Of a stretch of DNA of 64,000 nucleotides, positions 8,721 to 63,069 are shown one piece after another (position 1 is the first letter of the stretch; each line of letters starts with the position of its first letter). The translations under genes and the position numbers were made by a program. Source of the stretch: Pedobacter cryotolerans (GTDB lineage: Bacteria; Bacteroidota; Bacteroidia; Sphingobacteriales; Sphingobacteriaceae); NCBI RefSeq assembly GCF_005116475.1, contig NZ_SWBO01000001.1, positions 248,001-312,000 on the forward strand. The letters are read 5' to 3'. The notes under the pieces are model-generated. The model made no database searches. It was not told the DNA's origin and worked only from the letters and a program-made list of their open reading frames with translations.

Positions 8721-9298
8721 GTCGGGTTCATAATTTAATATTTTTTCAAATGTACAAAAATGAATAACAAGGTAAAGTCTTACGAAAGTCTAAAATTAAA
8801 ATCTCATAATTTAATCGCCTTGAGATTAGATTATATTTTTTTCGAAGCGCTGTATTTGTTTGTAAGTGTTGCCGTATGGTTATGCTACAGGGACACATTA
8901 AGTTAAGCGTTGGCGTGGACGCCAACGCTGGAGTCTTCTCATGTGGGCGTCCTCGCTAAAATATTAATAATGCTAAACTTAATCACATTTCGTTACCACT
9001 GCACATTTGGCTAAACTATAATCTTATTTAGGCAAAATGCAATCGGGCTACCTAACTTTCATTATAAACCCGATCGAAACGGAAATACTTTTACCACTCT
9101 CGATTTCTCGGGATTAGGGGTAAAAGATTGTAGTGTAGAGCGGGGATATTGGCCGCCACCTGTTACCAAACGCTCATTTTCTAAAAAATAAGCTCTTCAA
9201 TTAATTCACATTACCCAAATAGCTCAATAAAACGGAGTAAATTAGCATTGTAACAATTTTGGCAATTGACTATCTAATTACAACATTAAACCCTGCAA
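8721..9298. other. Gene-free stretch with hairpin and degenerate repeats
   Basis: No coding frame with recognisable content was found. A strong hairpin, agcgttggcgt pairing with acgccaacgct, lies at 8906-8929. The segment 9066-9090 (aaacccgatcgaaacggaaa and on) resembles 40627-40650, so part of this gap belongs to the shared intergenic repeat population. The last 100 bases should hold the DUF4407 promoter, but no full consensus is seen. Confidence 0.5.
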
Positions 9299-18928: not shown

Positions 18929-18991
18929 CCTAATTTGCAACCCTCTTTTCTTTCATTGTATTTGCCGTAAAAGCTGGATTGCAGCGATATC

Positions 18992-19063
18992 CTTTATTTT
19001 CTATTGAGCTTTGACAACTTTAATAGCAAGGCTGAAAGAAAGTTGTCAAAGCTGAAAATAAAG
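18992..19063. repeat. 72-base hairpin element (MITE-like)
   Basis: The outer arms ctttattttc (18992-19001) and gaaaataaag (19054-19063) and the inner arms agctttgacaacttt (19007-19021) and aaagttgtcaaagct (19039-19053) are all perfect complements, with a five-base bulge between the two left arms. It is non-coding, in the gap before rplM. Confidence 0.75.
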
Positions 19064-19112
19064 ATTTAGCGCAAAGCCAGACTGCCAATCAAAAGAACCA
19101 TAAATCCTTGCT

Positions 19113-22015: not shown

Positions 22016-22407
22016 TAGTTATGTCCGTCATTGCCAGCTTGACTGGCAATCGTAATGCTATACGCTGGAAGTTAAACTTATTAATACGTTTTCAAGACAG
22101 ATTCTCAATGTCTTCAAGATTTTTTTGGTAAAGCAAAATCCTTTTCCACATTATCGTTCGTCCCGCTATTTGTTCCAATTTTTTGCGCTTCGACTACGCT
22201 CAGCGTGACAAAAATTTTCACTGCTATCGGGTTTGTAAAACTCAGGATTGTGAAATTATTTGCAGTTGCATAGCTTAAAACGTAACGCTGTTGTGAGGTT
22301 GTAGCTCGTGCCAAAATTATAAGTCCGAGCTGCAAGCTCGAACTAGTAAGGGATATATTTAACTTAAGCTTGTGCAATTATTTACAGTTGCAATATGCAA
22401 ACCTATA
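22016..22407. repeat. Repeat-filled intergenic stretch
   Basis: No gene. It holds a hairpin ttgccagcttgactggcaa (about 22033), a gcttcgactacgctcagcg unit (about 22187-22206) also seen at 29.2, 29.3, 40.3 and 55.6 kb, a gagctgcaagctc hairpin near 22328, and a direct repeat of about 25 bases (22249 and 22371, gtg.aattattt.cagttgca). The open minus-strand frame 22114-22377 appears to be repeat-encoded noise. Confidence 0.6.
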
Positions 22408-28935: not shown

Positions 28936-29446
28936 GCAAAATTTGTCATTCTGAACATAGTGAAGAATCTCTATCCCTAATTCCAATATTAAATTCCTTG
29001 CTCAAAATCTTTACAGGCTGTTCCTCGGAGTCGCAATGTTTTCAGTCGTTTCGTTGTACCCAGCTTGACTGGGTATCGTAATGCTTAAATCTATTGAAAA
29101 ACAATGTCAGTTTTTCATCGGCAATTGTAGTCCCGCCAATGCTATCATATTTTTGTGCTTCGACAAGCTCAGCATGACAAAAATATTAAAGCTAAATCGG
29201 AGCCTGTCTGCCTTTGGCTGATTTAATTAACAAAGTTGGTGGTTCTTGGCAAATTGCAGCCCCTAATAGTAGCAAAAAACTTGCAATTTAAACCGGATTG
29301 AAATGGCATCCTGTGAGCTGTCATCCTGAGCGTAGTCGAAGGAAGCGAACAGATACAATGGAAAGCCGGACTAACTTTAATAGCTACAGAATTATTGCTT
29401 TTCAAAAATTTTAAAACTATTTCTATAACAAATCTATTTATTAGAT
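28936..29446. repeat. Repeat-filled intergenic stretch
   Basis: No gene. It contains an attctgaacatagtgaaga unit near 28948, the hairpin acccagcttgactgggt near 29057, gcttcgacaagctcagca near 29157 and tcatcctgagcgtagtcgaa near 29321 in the opposite direction. The segment gccggactaacttta and following (about 29363-29380) resembles 40860-40875. The minus-strand frame 29223-29405 is repeat-encoded noise. Confidence 0.6.
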
Positions 29447-35149: not shown

Positions 35150-35225
35150 GGGCGTTTTTACACGCTGTCCGCTGTATCCCCGATGAAAAATCGGGGGATG
35201 CCGCTTCCATCGTTAACGCTAGCAA
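35150..35225. repeat. Hairpin repeat after the NadR-like gene
   Basis: tccccgat and atcgggg form a strong stem around gaaaa (about 35177-35197), flanked by gctgtccgctgta and gccgcttcc pieces typical of short interspersed repeats. It may also end the pnuC-kinase transcript. The minus-strand frame across it (35052-35333) is not considered a gene. Confidence 0.5.
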
Positions 35226-57341: not shown

Positions 57342-57689
57342 TTACTTTTTCTCTACGCCAAAAATAGAATCTAAAATCATTTTAATAAGCGAAACTGCAA
57401 TGGCCAAAATTGCCGCGGCTAAGAAACCTGAGGTATTAAAGCCTTTCATCCAGCTATCTACCAATAAAATCATTAAAACTGTGATGATAAATGAGATTAA
57501 GCCGAGTGTTAATACGTTTAAGGGAAATGTAAAAACTCTAAGCACTAAACCTATGGTTGCATTTGCTAAAGCAATTAATAAAGCGGCAATTAGCGCACTC
57601 ATGTAGCCATCTACACTAACGCCGGGTACTAGGTAGGCGCCCACCATCATGGCAAAGCCCATTAATAAAATTTCGAGAATAAGCTTCAT
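57342..57689 (-). CDS. Phage-holin-IV-type small membrane protein
   Basis: A 115-residue protein with about four membrane helices (near residues 1-20, 30-48, 55-80, 88-108) and few charges. It fits the Phage_holin_4_2 (YvlD-like) family, which is chromosomal in most bacteria and not a true lysis holin. Features supporting it are GAYLVPGVSVDGYMSALIAA and the Gly/Ala-rich helices. It is divergent from the small lipoprotein gene that follows. Function unknown. Confidence 0.75.
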   Translation of the reverse strand: MKLILEILLMGFAMMVGAYLVPGVSVDGYMSALIAALLIALANATIGLVLRVFTFPLNVLTLGLISFIITVLMILLVDSWMKGFNTSGFLAAAILAIAVSLIKMILDSIFGVEKK

Positions 57690-57706: not shown

Positions 57707-58138
57707 ATGTTTAATAAAGTTAAATTTTTTGCAATTATAAACCTATTGTGGTTTTTAATTGCTTGCGGCAGTACAAATAGTGAGCCATTATCTATTCAGT
57801 TTTCTTCTGATAGTTCAAAAATCATTATCAAAAACATTAATGACGCTAGTTTATATCAACTTAAAACCAACCTTGAAACGGATTCTGCCTATCAAAACGT
57901 TGTTTCGGTTTTACAAACACCTAGCGAAGATGATTCATTAAGTATGGAAATAGTGTACCCTGGAGATTTAACAATAATAGGAGACAGTTTAATTTACACA
58001 CCAAAAAATGAATTTGTGAGAGGGAAGGTTTACTTGATAGAAACGATGATTAATACACAATTTGCCAAAAGCGAAGAAATCATAAAATCGCAGGTTGGTA
58101 GGCAAATAAAAGCGCAGCAAAAAATTTTAAAACGTTAG
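57707..58138 (+). CDS. Small lipoprotein, function unknown
   Basis: A 143-residue protein with a lipobox LIAC (lipidated C20, signal FFAIINLLWFLIAC). The mature part is mostly beta (SIQFSSDSSKIIIKNINDA, YQLKTNLETDSAYQNVVSVL) with a basic C-terminus. I do not recognise the family. It lies just before the rimP-nusA-infB promoter, and nothing in its sequence ties it to that operon. Confidence 0.65.
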   Translation: MFNKVKFFAIINLLWFLIACGSTNSEPLSIQFSSDSSKIIIKNINDASLYQLKTNLETDSAYQNVVSVLQTPSEDDSLSMEIVYPGDLTIIGDSLIYTPKNEFVRGKVYLIETMINTQFAKSEEIIKSQVGRQIKAQQKILKR

Positions 58139-58165: not shown

Positions 58166-58195
58166 TTTGTTTTGCAAAAATAATTCGTACATTTG
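58166..58195 (+). promoter_or_regulatory. Promoter of rimP-nusA-infB
   Basis: TTTG (58166-58169) and TACATTTG (58188-58195) are separated by 18 bases, close to the ideal -33/-7 arrangement. Transcription should start near 58202. Confidence 0.7.
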
Positions 58196-58212
58196 CACCG
58201 TAATAGAGGAAG

Positions 58213-58241
58213 AAGAGGGGACAGAGTCCCCTCTTTTCTTT
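58213..58241 (+). terminator. Intrinsic terminator or attenuator in the rimP-nusA-infB leader
   Basis: aagaggggac (58213-58222) and gtcccctctt (58226-58235) form a perfect ten-base stem with a three-base loop, followed by TTCTTTT. It starts about ten bases after the predicted transcription start and ends 17 bases before the rimP ATG. Confidence 0.8.
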
Positions 58242-58257
58242 TACAACAAATTAGGAT

Positions 58258-58722
58258 ATGCAGGTAGAAAAAAGAGTTGCAGCACTCGTTGAAGAAAAGA
58301 TTGCAGACAGACCCGAACTGTTTTTAGTGTCTATAAAGATGCTTCCAAACAATAAACTCATTATTCATGTAGATGGTGATGAAGGGATCAGTATTCAGGA
58401 TTGTGCAGCGATTAGTAGACATGTTGGTTTTCATTTAGAAGAAGAAAACACCATTGACAAAGCTTATAATTTAGAAGTTTCATCTCCTGGTGTTGGAGAA
58501 CCGCTACAATTAAATCGTCAATTTCATAAAAACATTGGCAGAGATTTAGGCATTAAATTGAGTGATGGTACAGCAAAAGAGGGTAAATTAATTTCGGTTA
58601 GTGAGCTGGCAATTGAAATTGAAGAGAAAGTAAAAGAAAAAGGTAAAAAAGTTCAACTGGTAAATACCCAAATTGAATTTAATAATATAGTAGAAACAAA
58701 GGTTTTAATTTCATTTAAATAA
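58258..58722 (+). CDS. rimP: Ribosome maturation factor RimP
   Basis: A 154-residue 30S assembly factor. It has the N-terminal alpha/beta domain with VHVDGDEGISIQDCAAISRHV-type segment (here HVDGDEGISIQD), the LEVSSPGVGEPL motif that marks the family, and a C-terminal SH3-like domain. It is the first gene of the conserved rimP-nusA-infB operon, four bases before nusA, and downstream of a leader terminator. Confidence 0.95.
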   Translation: MQVEKRVAALVEEKIADRPELFLVSIKMLPNNKLIIHVDGDEGISIQDCAAISRHVGFHLEEENTIDKAYNLEVSSPGVGEPLQLNRQFHKNIGRDLGIKLSDGTAKEGKLISVSELAIEIEEKVKEKGKKVQLVNTQIEFNNIVETKVLISFK

Positions 58723-58726
58723 ACAA

Positions 58727-59962
58727 ATGAGCAATATTAACTTAATCGATTCATTCCAGGAGTTTAAAGACTTTAAGAACATCGACCGCCCTACAGTAAT
58801 TAGTGTACTGGAAGAGGTATTTCGCAGTATGTTGCGTAAAAAATATGGAACAGACGAAAACTGTGACGTAATTGTAAATCCAGATAATGGGGATTTGGAG
58901 ATCTGGAGAACTAGAAAAGTAATGGAAGATGGTTTTTCTGAAGATGATGATCTAGAAATAGAACTTGCTGAAGTGAAGCTATTAGATGCTGATATGGAAG
59001 TTGGGGACGATTACATTGAGCAAATTACATTAGAAAGTTTTGGTCGCAGAGCGATTTTAGCAGCTCGCCAAACCTTAGTTTCTAAAGTTTTAGAATTAGA
59101 AAAAGATGAAATCTTTAAGAAATATAAAGATAGAGTTGGCGAAATTGTAACAGGAGAGGTTTATCAGGTTTGGAAAAAAGAAACTTTGGTATTAGATGAT
59201 GAAGGCAACGAATTAATGATGCCTAAAACAGAACAAATCCCTGCAGATTATTTCAAGAAAGGGGATTCGGTACGTGCCGTAATTTCTAAAGTTGATATGG
59301 TTAATGCAACACCAAAAATTATCATCTCTAGAATTGCACCAGAGTTTTTACAACGCTTGTTCGAAATTGAAGTTCCAGAAATTTTTGATGGTTTAATTAC
59401 GATCAAGAAAATTGTTCGTGAACCAGGAGAAAGAGCTAAAGTTGCTGTTGAATCTTACGATGATAGAATTGATCCGGTAGGTGCTTGTGTTGGTATGAAA
59501 GGGTCTCGTATCCACGGTATCGTGAGAGAGTTAAAAAATGAAAATATTGATGTAATTAACTTTACAAACAATGTTTCTCTGTATATTCAGAGAGCTTTAA
59601 GCCCGGCAAAAATTACGTCGATTAAATTAAATGATGAAAATAAAACTGCTTCGGTTTATTTAAAACCAGATCAGGTTTCATTAGCAATTGGCCGTGGCGG
59701 ACACAACATTAAATTGGCAGGTAAATTGACGGGATACGAAATTGATGTTTATCGTGAAGCTGGAGAAGAAGATGAAGATGTGGATATCGAAGAATTCTCA
59801 GATGAAATTGATAGCTGGATCATTGATGAATTAAAAGCAATAGGTTGCGATACTGCAAAAAGTGTTTTAGCTTTATCAGTAGATGAATTAGTAAAACGTA
59901 CCGATTTAGAGGAAGAAACAATCAAAGAAGTGATTAGTATTCTTCAATCGGAATTTGAATAA
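58727..59962 (+). CDS. nusA: Transcription termination/antitermination factor NusA
   Basis: A 411-residue RNA-polymerase-associated factor. It has an N-terminal RNAP-binding domain (about 1-130), an S1 domain (about 135-205, VGEIVTGEVYQVW), two KH domains with PVGACVGMKGSRI and LAIGRGGHNIKLAGKLTG, and an acidic tail with one helix-hairpin-helix region. E. coli NusA has two C-terminal acidic repeats; here the end is shorter, as usual in this phylum. It lies between rimP and infB, and it could act on the leader terminator of its own operon. Confidence 0.96.
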   Translation: MSNINLIDSFQEFKDFKNIDRPTVISVLEEVFRSMLRKKYGTDENCDVIVNPDNGDLEIWRTRKVMEDGFSEDDDLEIELAEVKLLDADMEVGDDYIEQITLESFGRRAILAARQTLVSKVLELEKDEIFKKYKDRVGEIVTGEVYQVWKKETLVLDDEGNELMMPKTEQIPADYFKKGDSVRAVISKVDMVNATPKIIISRIAPEFLQRLFEIEVPEIFDGLITIKKIVREPGERAKVAVESYDDRIDPVGACVGMKGSRIHGIVRELKNENIDVINFTNNVSLYIQRALSPAKITSIKLNDENKTASVYLKPDQVSLAIGRGGHNIKLAGKLTGYEIDVYREAGEEDEDVDIEEFSDEIDSWIIDELKAIGCDTAKSVLALSVDELVKRTDLEEETIKEVISILQSEFE

Positions 59963-59973
59963 CGTTGTATGCT

Positions 59974-60003
59974 TGAATAAACAAGAATAAACGTTACTTT
60001 TGT
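59974..60003 (+). promoter_or_regulatory. Internal promoter of infB
   Basis: TTG (59974-59976) and TACTTTTG (59996-60003) are 19 bases apart, matching the full consensus. It lies just downstream of nusA and 31 bases before infB, so infB can be transcribed independently of rimP-nusA. Confidence 0.7.
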
Positions 60004-60033: not shown

Positions 60034-63000
60034 ATGTCAGACGACAAAGCCGTAATTTTATTTAAAGCAGCCAAAGAGCTTAACATAGGAATTGCTACAG
60101 CAGTAGATTTTCTTGGTAAGAAAGGCTTTGCTGTGGAAAATAAGCCCACTACCAAACTTTCTAAAGAGATGTACGATACATTGATGAAGGAGTTTCAGGG
60201 GGATAAAATCGTAAAAGAAGAAGCCAATCAGATAGTTATAGGAAAAATTCGTCGTGATGAACCCGAAGCAGCTGAGAAAGCTCCTGAGGTGCCTAGTAAA
60301 AAACAAGATTTTGAAAACGAAGGGATTTTAATTAAAAACCTTCATTCTTATACTCCTCCAGCTGAGAAGCCAAAGGAAGAAAAGCCTGTAGAAGCTACGC
60401 CAGTTGAGCCAGTTAAAGTTGCTGAGCCAGTAAAACCTGCGGAGCCTATAGTTGCAAAAGAAGATGATGGTTCGCTGCCTGGTGTTAAAATTGTAGGTAA
60501 AATTGATTTAAACAATTTAAATACAAAAACTCGTCCTGATAAGAAGGAAGAGCCAGCGCCAGTAGTTGAAACAAAAAAGGAAACTCCTGTAGTTGCTGAA
60601 GTACCTAAAGTTGAACCTAAGGTAGAGCAACCGAAAGAAGAAAAGCCAGCTCCTGTTGAAGAAGTTAAAGCCCCAGTTCAAGAAACTAAGGTTGTTCTGC
60701 CTGCCGAACAGGTTGAAGAAAAACCAAAAGTGGAAGAGGCTAAGCCAGCTGTTACAGCTACACCTGTTGCAGAAACTCCAGCGGAAGACGAAGTAATTAA
60801 AGCTCGTTCGGTAAAATTATCTGGACCAAATATTATTGGTAAAATTGTATTACCAACAACACCAGACCGTAGAAATCAACCTGTTGCTTCATCAAATGAT
60901 AGTGAAGCTGCTAAACGTAAACGTAAGCGTAAAAAAACGCCAGGTGGACCAAATGCACCTCAACAAGGTCAAGGTACGCAGGGCGCTGCTCCAAGTCAAG
61001 GTCAGCAAGGACAACAAGCTCCTCGCCCTGCCGGAACAGGTGTGCCAGCTAACAGACCAGATTTTAGAAATAACACTAACAATACCGCTGGTGGTCGTCC
61101 AAACTTTAGAAATGCTCGTCCAGGTGCTCCATCTGGCGGACCAAAAGAAGAGCCAACAGAAAAAGAAATACAAGATCAGATTAAAGCAACACTTGCACGT
61201 TTAAGTGGAGCAGGTAAATCTGGTAAATTTGCACAAAGAGCAAAATTACGTCGTCAGAAACGTGATGATGTTGCTTTAACTGCAGAAGAAGCAGCAGCAG
61301 AAGAACAATTACAATCTAAAGTATTAAAAGTTACTGAGTTTGTTACGGCAAATGAGTTGGCTAATATGATGGATGTTCCAGTAACAAAAATTATTGGTAC
61401 TTGTATGAGTTTGGGTATGTTCGTTTCTATTAATCAACGTTTAGATGCAGAAACTTTAACAATTGTTGCTGATGAATTTGGTTACGAAATTCAGTTTGTA
61501 AAAGCTGATGAAGAAGCCGATAGCGTAATTGAAGAAGAAGATGCAGCAGAAGATTTAGAAGCTAGAGTTCCTGTTGTTACGATCATGGGTCACGTAGATC
61601 ATGGTAAAACATCATTGCTAGATTATATTCGTAAAGCGAATGTAGTTGCTGGTGAGGCTGGTGGTATTACACAGCACATTGGAGCTTATAAAGTAACTAC
61701 AAACTCTGGTAAACAAGTTACTTTCTTAGATACTCCTGGTCACGAAGCCTTTACAGCGATGCGTGCTCGTGGTGCTAAAGTAGCAGATATTGCCATTATT
61801 GTTATTGCTGCGGATGATGCGGTGATGCCTCAAACTAAAGAAGCAATTAACCATGCACAGGCTGCTGGTGTACCTTTAGTATTTGCTTTTACAAAAATTG
61901 ATAAACCAGGAGCTAATTCAGATAGAGTGAAAGAACAATTATCTGTAATGAATATTTTGGTTGAAGATTGGGGTGGTAAATTCCAGTCGCAAGAAATATC
62001 AAGTAAAAGTGGCTTAAACGTAGATTTATTATTAGATAAAGTTTTATTAGAAGCAGAGATATTAGAATTACAAGCTAATCCTAACAAACGTGCAACGGGT
62101 ACGGTTATCGAAGCAACATTAGATAAAGGCCGTGGTATTGTAACTACTGTATTGGTACAAGCTGGTACATTAAGAGTTGGTGATCCGATTTTAGCAGGTA
62201 GTTATAGTGGTAAAGTAAAAGCTTTATTTAACGAACGTGGTGCTAAAGTTAATGAAGCTGGCCCATCTGTACCTGTACAAGTATTAGGTATGCAAGGTGC
62301 GCCAACTGCGGGTGATAAGTTTAATGCAATGGAAAGTGAAGTTGAAGCGAGAGAAATTGCAAATAAACGTTTACAGTTAATGCGTGAGCAAGGTTTACGT
62401 ACACAGAAACATATTACGCTAGATGAGATTGGTCGTCGTTTAGCAATTGGTAACTTTAAAGAGTTAAACTTAATTGTTAAAGGTGATGTGGATGGCTCTA
62501 TCGAAGCATTAGCCGATTCATTATTGAAGTTATCTACTGAAGAAATTCAGATCAATATTATTGGTAAAGCAGTGGGTCAAATCTCAGAATCTGATGTATT
62601 GTTGGCTTCTGCTTCAGATGCTATCATTATCGGTTTCCAAGTACGTCCTTCGCCAGGTGCCCGCAAATTAGCAGAAGCTGAACAAATCGATATTCGTTTA
62701 TATTCTATCATTTACGATGCAATTAACGAGATTAAAGCGGCTATGGAAGGTATGTTGGCTCCAGAATTTGAAGAGAAAATTGTGGCTAACGTAGAGATTA
62801 GAGAAACCTTTAAAATTACAAAAGTTGGTACCATTGCAGGTTGTATGGTATTAGATGGTAAGATCACTAGAAATAGCAAAATCCGTATTGTACGTGATGG
62901 TGTGGTAATTTACACAGGTGAATTAGCTTCGTTAAAACGTTTCAAAGATGATGTTAAAGAAGTTTCTAAAGGTTACGAATGTGGTCTAAACATCCAAAAC

Positions 63001-63069
63001 TTTAATAATATCGAAGTTGGAGATATTGTAGAAGCTTACGAACAAGTAGAGGTTAAAAGGAAGTTGTAA
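60034..63069 (+). CDS. infB: Translation initiation factor IF-2
   Basis: A 1011-residue GTPase that places initiator tRNA on the ribosome. An N-terminal IF2_N-like helical part is followed by a long low-complexity region rich in Pro, Glu, Lys and Val (about residues 90-390), a second IF2_N domain (about 425-470), then the G domain with GHVDHGKTS (G1 near 519-526), DTPGHE (G3) and FTKIDKPG (G4), and domains II to IV. Length and domain order are usual for Bacteroidota. It is last in the operon, with an internal promoter and a terminator. Confidence 0.97.

Follow-up and report, generated by a model that had tools for sequence, protein, structure and literature searches.

A start-proximal terminator-like hairpin before rimP-nusA-infB in Bacteroidota: a probable transcription attenuator with NusA as candidate sensor

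Why should a structure with the features of an intrinsic terminator lie between a promoter and the first codon of rimP, the leading gene of rimP-nusA-infB in Pedobacter cryotolerans? We addressed this question in a stretch of 64,000 nucleotides from this bacterium, referred to here as the window, and in the corresponding leaders of its relatives. The sequence-only reading had described a perfect ten-base stem with a T-rich tail between a consensus promoter and the rimP ATG, and this was confirmed by the sequence and by folding: a perfect 10-bp hairpin plus T-rich tail (58213-58242) is located between the TACATTTG box, a perfect copy of TAnnTTTG, the primary-sigma box of the Bacteroidota, and the ATG at 58258 (Table 1). 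The TTTG further upstream is a candidate -33 element, in agreement with the TTTG consensus for this position.

Table 1. Elements of the rimP leader and genes of the operon in window coordinates
Feature	Position	Strand	Basis and remarks
Candidate -33 element TTTG	58166..58169	+	Sequence; 18 nt 5' of the -7 box
Promoter box TACATTTG, perfect TAnnTTTG primary-sigma box	58188..58195	+	Sequence; meaning and -12/-5 position according to PMC9723704
Predicted transcription start, +1	58200 (near)	+	Inferred from box position
Hairpin 5' arm AAGAGGGGAC	58213..58222	+	Sequence, folding, shuffles
Hairpin loop AGA	58223..58225	+	Sequence, folding
Hairpin 3' arm GTCCCCTCTT	58226..58235	+	Sequence, folding
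T-rich tail TTCTTTT, a single C breaking the T run; predicted site of release	58236..58242	+	Sequence
rimP	58258..58722	+	Pfam RimP_N (5.1e-15), DUF150_C
nusA	58727..59962	+	Pfam NusA_N, KH_5, S1
infB	60034..63069	+	Pfam IF-2, GTP_EFTU
Possible separate infB promoter box TACTTTTG, perfect TAnnTTTG	59995..60002	+	31 nt 5' of infB; similar box in 8 of 62 relatives

In Flavobacterium psychrophilum the TAnnTTTG box of the primary σ factor spans -12 to -5 (PMC9723704), and the same spacing places the start of the window's transcript near 58200. Counted from there, the stem would extend from about +14 to +36 and the T tract would end at about +43, giving a predicted terminated RNA of about 43 nt. 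The hairpin would therefore be start-proximal as had been proposed, the proposed distance of about ten bases being slightly low. Folding of 58166-58258 yielded -27.3 kcal/mol (z -4.4) and that of 58200-58257 yielded -24.4 kcal/mol (z -5.4), values equalled by none of 200 shuffles in either case. The 19-base stem-loop is present in a single copy in the window, and none of 100 shuffles contained a match to it even with three mismatches allowed. A generic scan, whose boxes are those of E. coli, listed neither a promoter nor a terminator at the rimP leader; we think that the terminator was missed because the stem was extended into the A/U of arms and tail, which left too few T residues. The Rfam covariance models found nothing at or above gathering score at the leader. 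A riboswitch, a T-box and a leader peptide were considered and rejected, as there is hardly any space for them between the predicted start and the stem and no Rfam match reached gathering score.

Between the window and Pedobacter frigiditerrae (L165; L and f denote our loci and families) the NusA sequences share 98.8% identity, and on this basis we assign the window to Pedobacter, phylum Bacteroidota. Upstream of the leader and on the same strand as rimP lies an open reading frame for 143 amino acids (57707-58138) that has no Pfam match and ends 75 nt 5' of the stem; adjoining it on the minus strand is a gene for a 115-residue Phage_holin_4_2 (Pfam) protein (57342-57689). Elsewhere in the 64-kb window the Flavo-1 model (RF01705) exceeds its gathering score five times, on both strands (9062-9151, 18959-19087, 22155-22238, 29286-29376 and 35154-35224).

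Absence of the hairpin from close relatives had been named as one of the observations that would speak against attenuation. A first search of 31 genomes provided 30 loci, namely the window, 18 others of the genus and 11 from 12 genomes of other families of the class, and inspection by eye revealed a hairpin before rimP, downstream of a TAnnTTTG box, in all 30, most of them with a GGGGAC/GTCCCC-like stem. To these were added 130 loci out of at least 150 found in a phylum-wide draw of 198 genomes and 14 loci from one further family of that draw (15 genomes searched). RimP was found at 170 of the resulting 174 loci, and the other four (L106 of f47; L120, L131 and L147, all of f43) were dropped. 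At L019 (genome G014, a draft of about 620 contigs) the rimP match is split into residues 1-24 and 37-154, reflecting a frame break or an assembly error.

When a terminator-like hairpin was defined by at least five pairs, at least three of them G-C, and at least five T in eight nucleotides, 154 of the 170 rimP leaders contained one within their last 110 nt, the leaders often coming from related genomes so that the counts are not independent. Five dinucleotide shuffles of the same leaders gave 12, 13, 10, 9 and 4, and control leaders gave 2/30 for dnaA, 1/29 for recA and 2/30 for rho. A stricter score left 137/170 rimP leaders as compared with 1, 3, 1, 1 and 2 of 170 in the shuffles and 1/30, 0/29 and 1/30 in the dnaA, recA and rho controls. 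All controls were from the class of the window (30 of 57 dnaA-bearing, 30 of 59 recA-bearing, 29 of these usable, and 30 of 40 rho-bearing genomes), with rho taken to start at the first ATG of its frame; contig ends truncate L347, L351 and L361, whose starts may be misplaced. Given 154/170 rimP leaders against 4 to 13 in the shuffles, and the few dnaA, recA and rho leaders, the rimP-leader hairpin is not a product of chance.

Extending the search to 130 nt raised the count to 155/170, with at least one positive leader in 45 of 47 families, one of which (f12) is credited through a wrong hairpin; by this rule f23 (0/4) and f48 (0/1) had none. Among the 15 misses, 14 have a hairpin when inspected by eye, which escaped the rule through an over-long loop, through a bulge or through a wrongly placed start codon, and one (L118) is doubtful. 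At L030 the rule picked a wrong upstream hairpin, the true one having a poor T tract. The hairpin described by the sequence-only reading is thus present in the window, and one also stands in the 29 other loci of the first search (by eye) and in most leaders of the phylum, so that the absence named as an objection was not observed.

A perfect TAnnTTTG was found in the 60 nt 5' of the hairpin in 99 of 155 leaders, where shuffling predicts about seven, and in the 60 nt preceding that stretch in 3 of 127. At five of six letters the numbers were 134/155, 72 in shuffles and 49/127 in the preceding stretch, and because of these high backgrounds the perfect match is the telling measure. Even at five of six letters no box is present in 21 of the 155 leaders; f24 accounts for five of these, its full set, and f28 for six.

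Beyond place and shape, the letters of the stem themselves are conserved in part of the class. The pattern GAGGGGACN3-8GTCCCCTC (loops 3-8) occurs at a single place in the 4.25-Mb genome of the window and in 28 of 99 genomes of the same class, always in one copy, and is absent from 71; a reversed control pattern matched in 2 genomes. Of the 28 copies, 27 lie 14-58 nt upstream of rimP and are spread over 18 families, and all 27 are preceded by a perfect box 14-29 nt before the stem. Around the remaining copy (L283) the stretch contains no rimP, and its stem is not preceded by a box. Although the search did not require any T, the 8 nt following the stem contain 5-7 of them in 28/28 copies. In a named genome collection the exact stem with a terminal CTCTTT was found in at least 119 stretches. 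Of those listed, 109 have it 14-148 nt before rimP; among the other ten, the motif lies near the stretch edge in four (L168, L191, L215, L220), five belong to other phyla (L166, L183, L211, L222, L232), and L251 has no rimP nearby. A perfect box precedes 100 of the 109 rimP loci among the matches listed, in 84 of these 100 cases at 20-30 nt before the stem.

Across the phylum, by contrast, 154 leaders display 51 different stem cores (six pairs, in two cases five), while the hairpin and its place are kept. The 5' arm is G-rich in 114, C-rich in 36 and even in 4 of them, and loops measure 3-12 nt in rule-found hairpins and 3-7 nt in the exact-stem set. As seen by eye, L001 has G-C and L010 has A-T at the eighth pair counted from the loop, and the flanks of the stem differ between families. 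When 67 leaders of the class were aligned with MAFFT, RNAalifold predicted no pairs, which we attribute to 5' arms lying out of register; a second alignment of 16 family members was also partly out of register. Free change of the stem is what a hairpin needs, whereas letters that persist through 18 families of the class when the flanks do not go beyond the needs of a plain terminator. Thus, as judged from these sequences, conservation probably concerns both structure and letters.

Seven leaders (L031, L032, L037, L043, L061, L064 and L099; families f24, f36, f40, f50 and f46) carry two terminator-like hairpins in tandem before rimP. By eye, both are followed by a T run, and the 5' arm of the first is mostly G-rich, that of the second C-rich; in such families the second may be the one that our rule takes. 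This order is the reverse of that of the gammaproteobacterial tandem described in PMC2965389. Leaders of f27 and f45 mostly have the C-rich form, e.g. TCGCCC..GGGCGA followed by a T run, as though these families had lost the first hairpin of such a tandem and retained the second.

An attenuator at this place has a history. Naville and Gautheret (2010; PMC2965389) named the 'rimP-leader', called it the most ubiquitous transcription attenuator, reported that its stem motif was absent from other terminators, and put forward NusA as its regulator. Repression of the operon by NusA, reported for E. coli, is cited in the same paper. According to a review that cites Mondal 2016 (PMC12288461), NusA of B. 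subtilis controls its own synthesis by stimulating termination in its 5' leader. In Streptococcus agalactiae (gbs0413-gbs0418) a short RNA that ends 31 nt after its start, at a predicted intrinsic terminator, shares this start with the long rimP-nusA-infB RNA, and feedback by NusA was suggested (PMC4448216). Within the Bacteroidota, a structured 5' element without an Rfam match was described before rimP in F. psychrophilum and other genera of the Flavobacteriaceae (PMC9723704). It shares phylum and gene with the hairpin of the window, to which we liken it by description and without implying identity; the text of that paper proposes no mechanism and does not follow the element outside the family.

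The element of the window is best seen as the Bacteroidota form of the 2010 'rimP-leader'. As described in PMC2965389, the latter is a short hairpin with a G-rich 5' and a C-rich 3' arm followed by a T stretch, located 4-130 nt before the gene in the same operon and devoid of a larger conserved element. The window likewise has a short hairpin and a T stretch upstream of rimP-nusA-infB, with no larger conserved element or antiterminator in the roughly 13 nt between predicted start and stem, and its stem is nearly exclusive to rimP (27/28 in the class; the exceptions, there and in the named collection, are L283, L251 and the five loci of other phyla). The published stem signature is GGGc..gCCC and that of the window GGGGAC..GTCCCC, in which GGG..CCC is present but separated by an A-T pair from the loop-closing C-G pair; a few other Bacteroidota families do have GGGC/GCCC cores, and some families differ from the 'rimP-leader' by their C-rich 5' arm. 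The distances also differ: the B. subtilis rimP leader measures about 180 nt (PMC2965389) compared with a stem start at about +14 here, and the short RNA of S. agalactiae was seen by RNA-seq (31 nt; PMC4448216) whereas that of the window is predicted (about 43 nt). For other phyla, attenuation of this operon has thus been a published idea since 2010. The main text of PMC2965389 names Firmicutes and Gammaproteobacteria and contains no word beginning with 'bacteroid', and its supplementary species lists may include Bacteroidota. The phylum-wide picture, the class-specific stem and the turnover of stems were not found in the main texts of open-licence papers.

Taken as a reading of sequence, the proposal that rimP-nusA-infB is controlled by attenuation is well supported by a conserved hairpin and T tail behind a promoter box. 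We favor a model, at a probability of about 0.68, in which the start-proximal intrinsic terminator is a transcription attenuator of rimP-nusA-infB with NusA as the best candidate sensor. RNA polymerase would start near 58200, and after some 35-43 nt the nascent RNA would form a hairpin from GAGGGGAC and GTCCCCTC, followed by a U-rich tract. The simplest reading of the leader is that a fraction of the polymerases would then stop at about +40 while the remainder would read through to rimP and nusA, the choice most simply depending on a protein bound to the polymerase or to the hairpin. Such a protein is the more likely device, and a sensor of small molecules or tRNA unlikely, since about 13 nt before the stem hardly offer space for an aptamer or an antiterminator, nor for a leader peptide. 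NusA, the product of the second gene, is the candidate because of its place in the operon and the precedents in B. subtilis, E. coli and S. agalactiae. As in B. subtilis, where the effect of NusA was seen and intrinsic termination in the 5' leader controls entry into the gene (PMC12288461), feedback by NusA-stimulated termination is most likely by analogy: more NusA would cause more termination and hence less operon message, and the stop signal would probably let the cell limit the amount of NusA. It is tempting to speculate, as a tentative addition, that GAGGGGAC/GTCCCCTC may be a sequence-specific sensor site whose letters are read by NusA or RimP, site and protein having co-evolved into lineage 'dialects' that would include the reversed arms and the opposite tandem hairpins.

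The same attenuator might instead respond to a different effector such as RimP, NusG, the state of ribosome assembly or elongation speed, and would then link the output of the operon to growth or ribosome maturation and not to the level of NusA. That 18 families of the class retain the exact stem at rimP suggests a specific binder, and RimP is encoded by the first gene, its feedback being mentioned as possible in PMC2965389; however, the B. subtilis experiments, according to the review (PMC12288461), point to NusA, and we consider another effector unlikely. It is quite improbable that the hairpin stabilizes the rimP mRNA at its 5' end or serves as an RNase processing site, the T tail being incidental. 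The location of the hairpin at the predicted 5' end would suit such a role, and in L023, L028, L029 and L030 the hairpin is kept while the T tract is interrupted or weak, which implies that termination may not be the sole role of the hairpin; yet none of the 28 exact-stem copies, one of them not at rimP, lacks its T-rich sequel.

It is very unlikely that the hairpin is an ordinary 3' terminator of the upstream reading frame and the promoter box fortuitous. That frame does run on the same strand up to 75 nt before the stem, and in 41 of the 70 leaders with enough DNA the longest upstream frame, measured from stop to stop, shares the strand of rimP, but it is on the other strand in 28 and absent in one, and the box precedes the stem at 27/27 exact-stem rimP loci of the class. 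Finally, a repressor operator in the DNA, for which a palindrome downstream of a promoter might be taken, is scarcely credible with an arm-to-arm distance that varies with the loop and letters that differ between families while pairing and T tail are kept.

The sequence-only reading had further claimed that infB has its own promoter and would escape this control. A perfect TAnnTTTG does precede infB in the window, but within 90 nt of infB, whose starts in the relatives were set by script as the first in-frame ATG, such a box was found in just 8 of 62 relatives; the 90 nt further upstream contained one in 2 of 62. A general escape of infB via its own promoter is therefore doubtful.

If the attenuation model is right, most sampled families of the Bacteroidota would possess a start-proximal feedback terminator before rimP-nusA-infB, and an attenuator already called the most ubiquitous would have a wider range still. 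The altered stems would then constitute a natural series for asking what NusA reads in RNA, and the leader would be a compact and favorably located system for the study of transcription termination in Bacteroidota.
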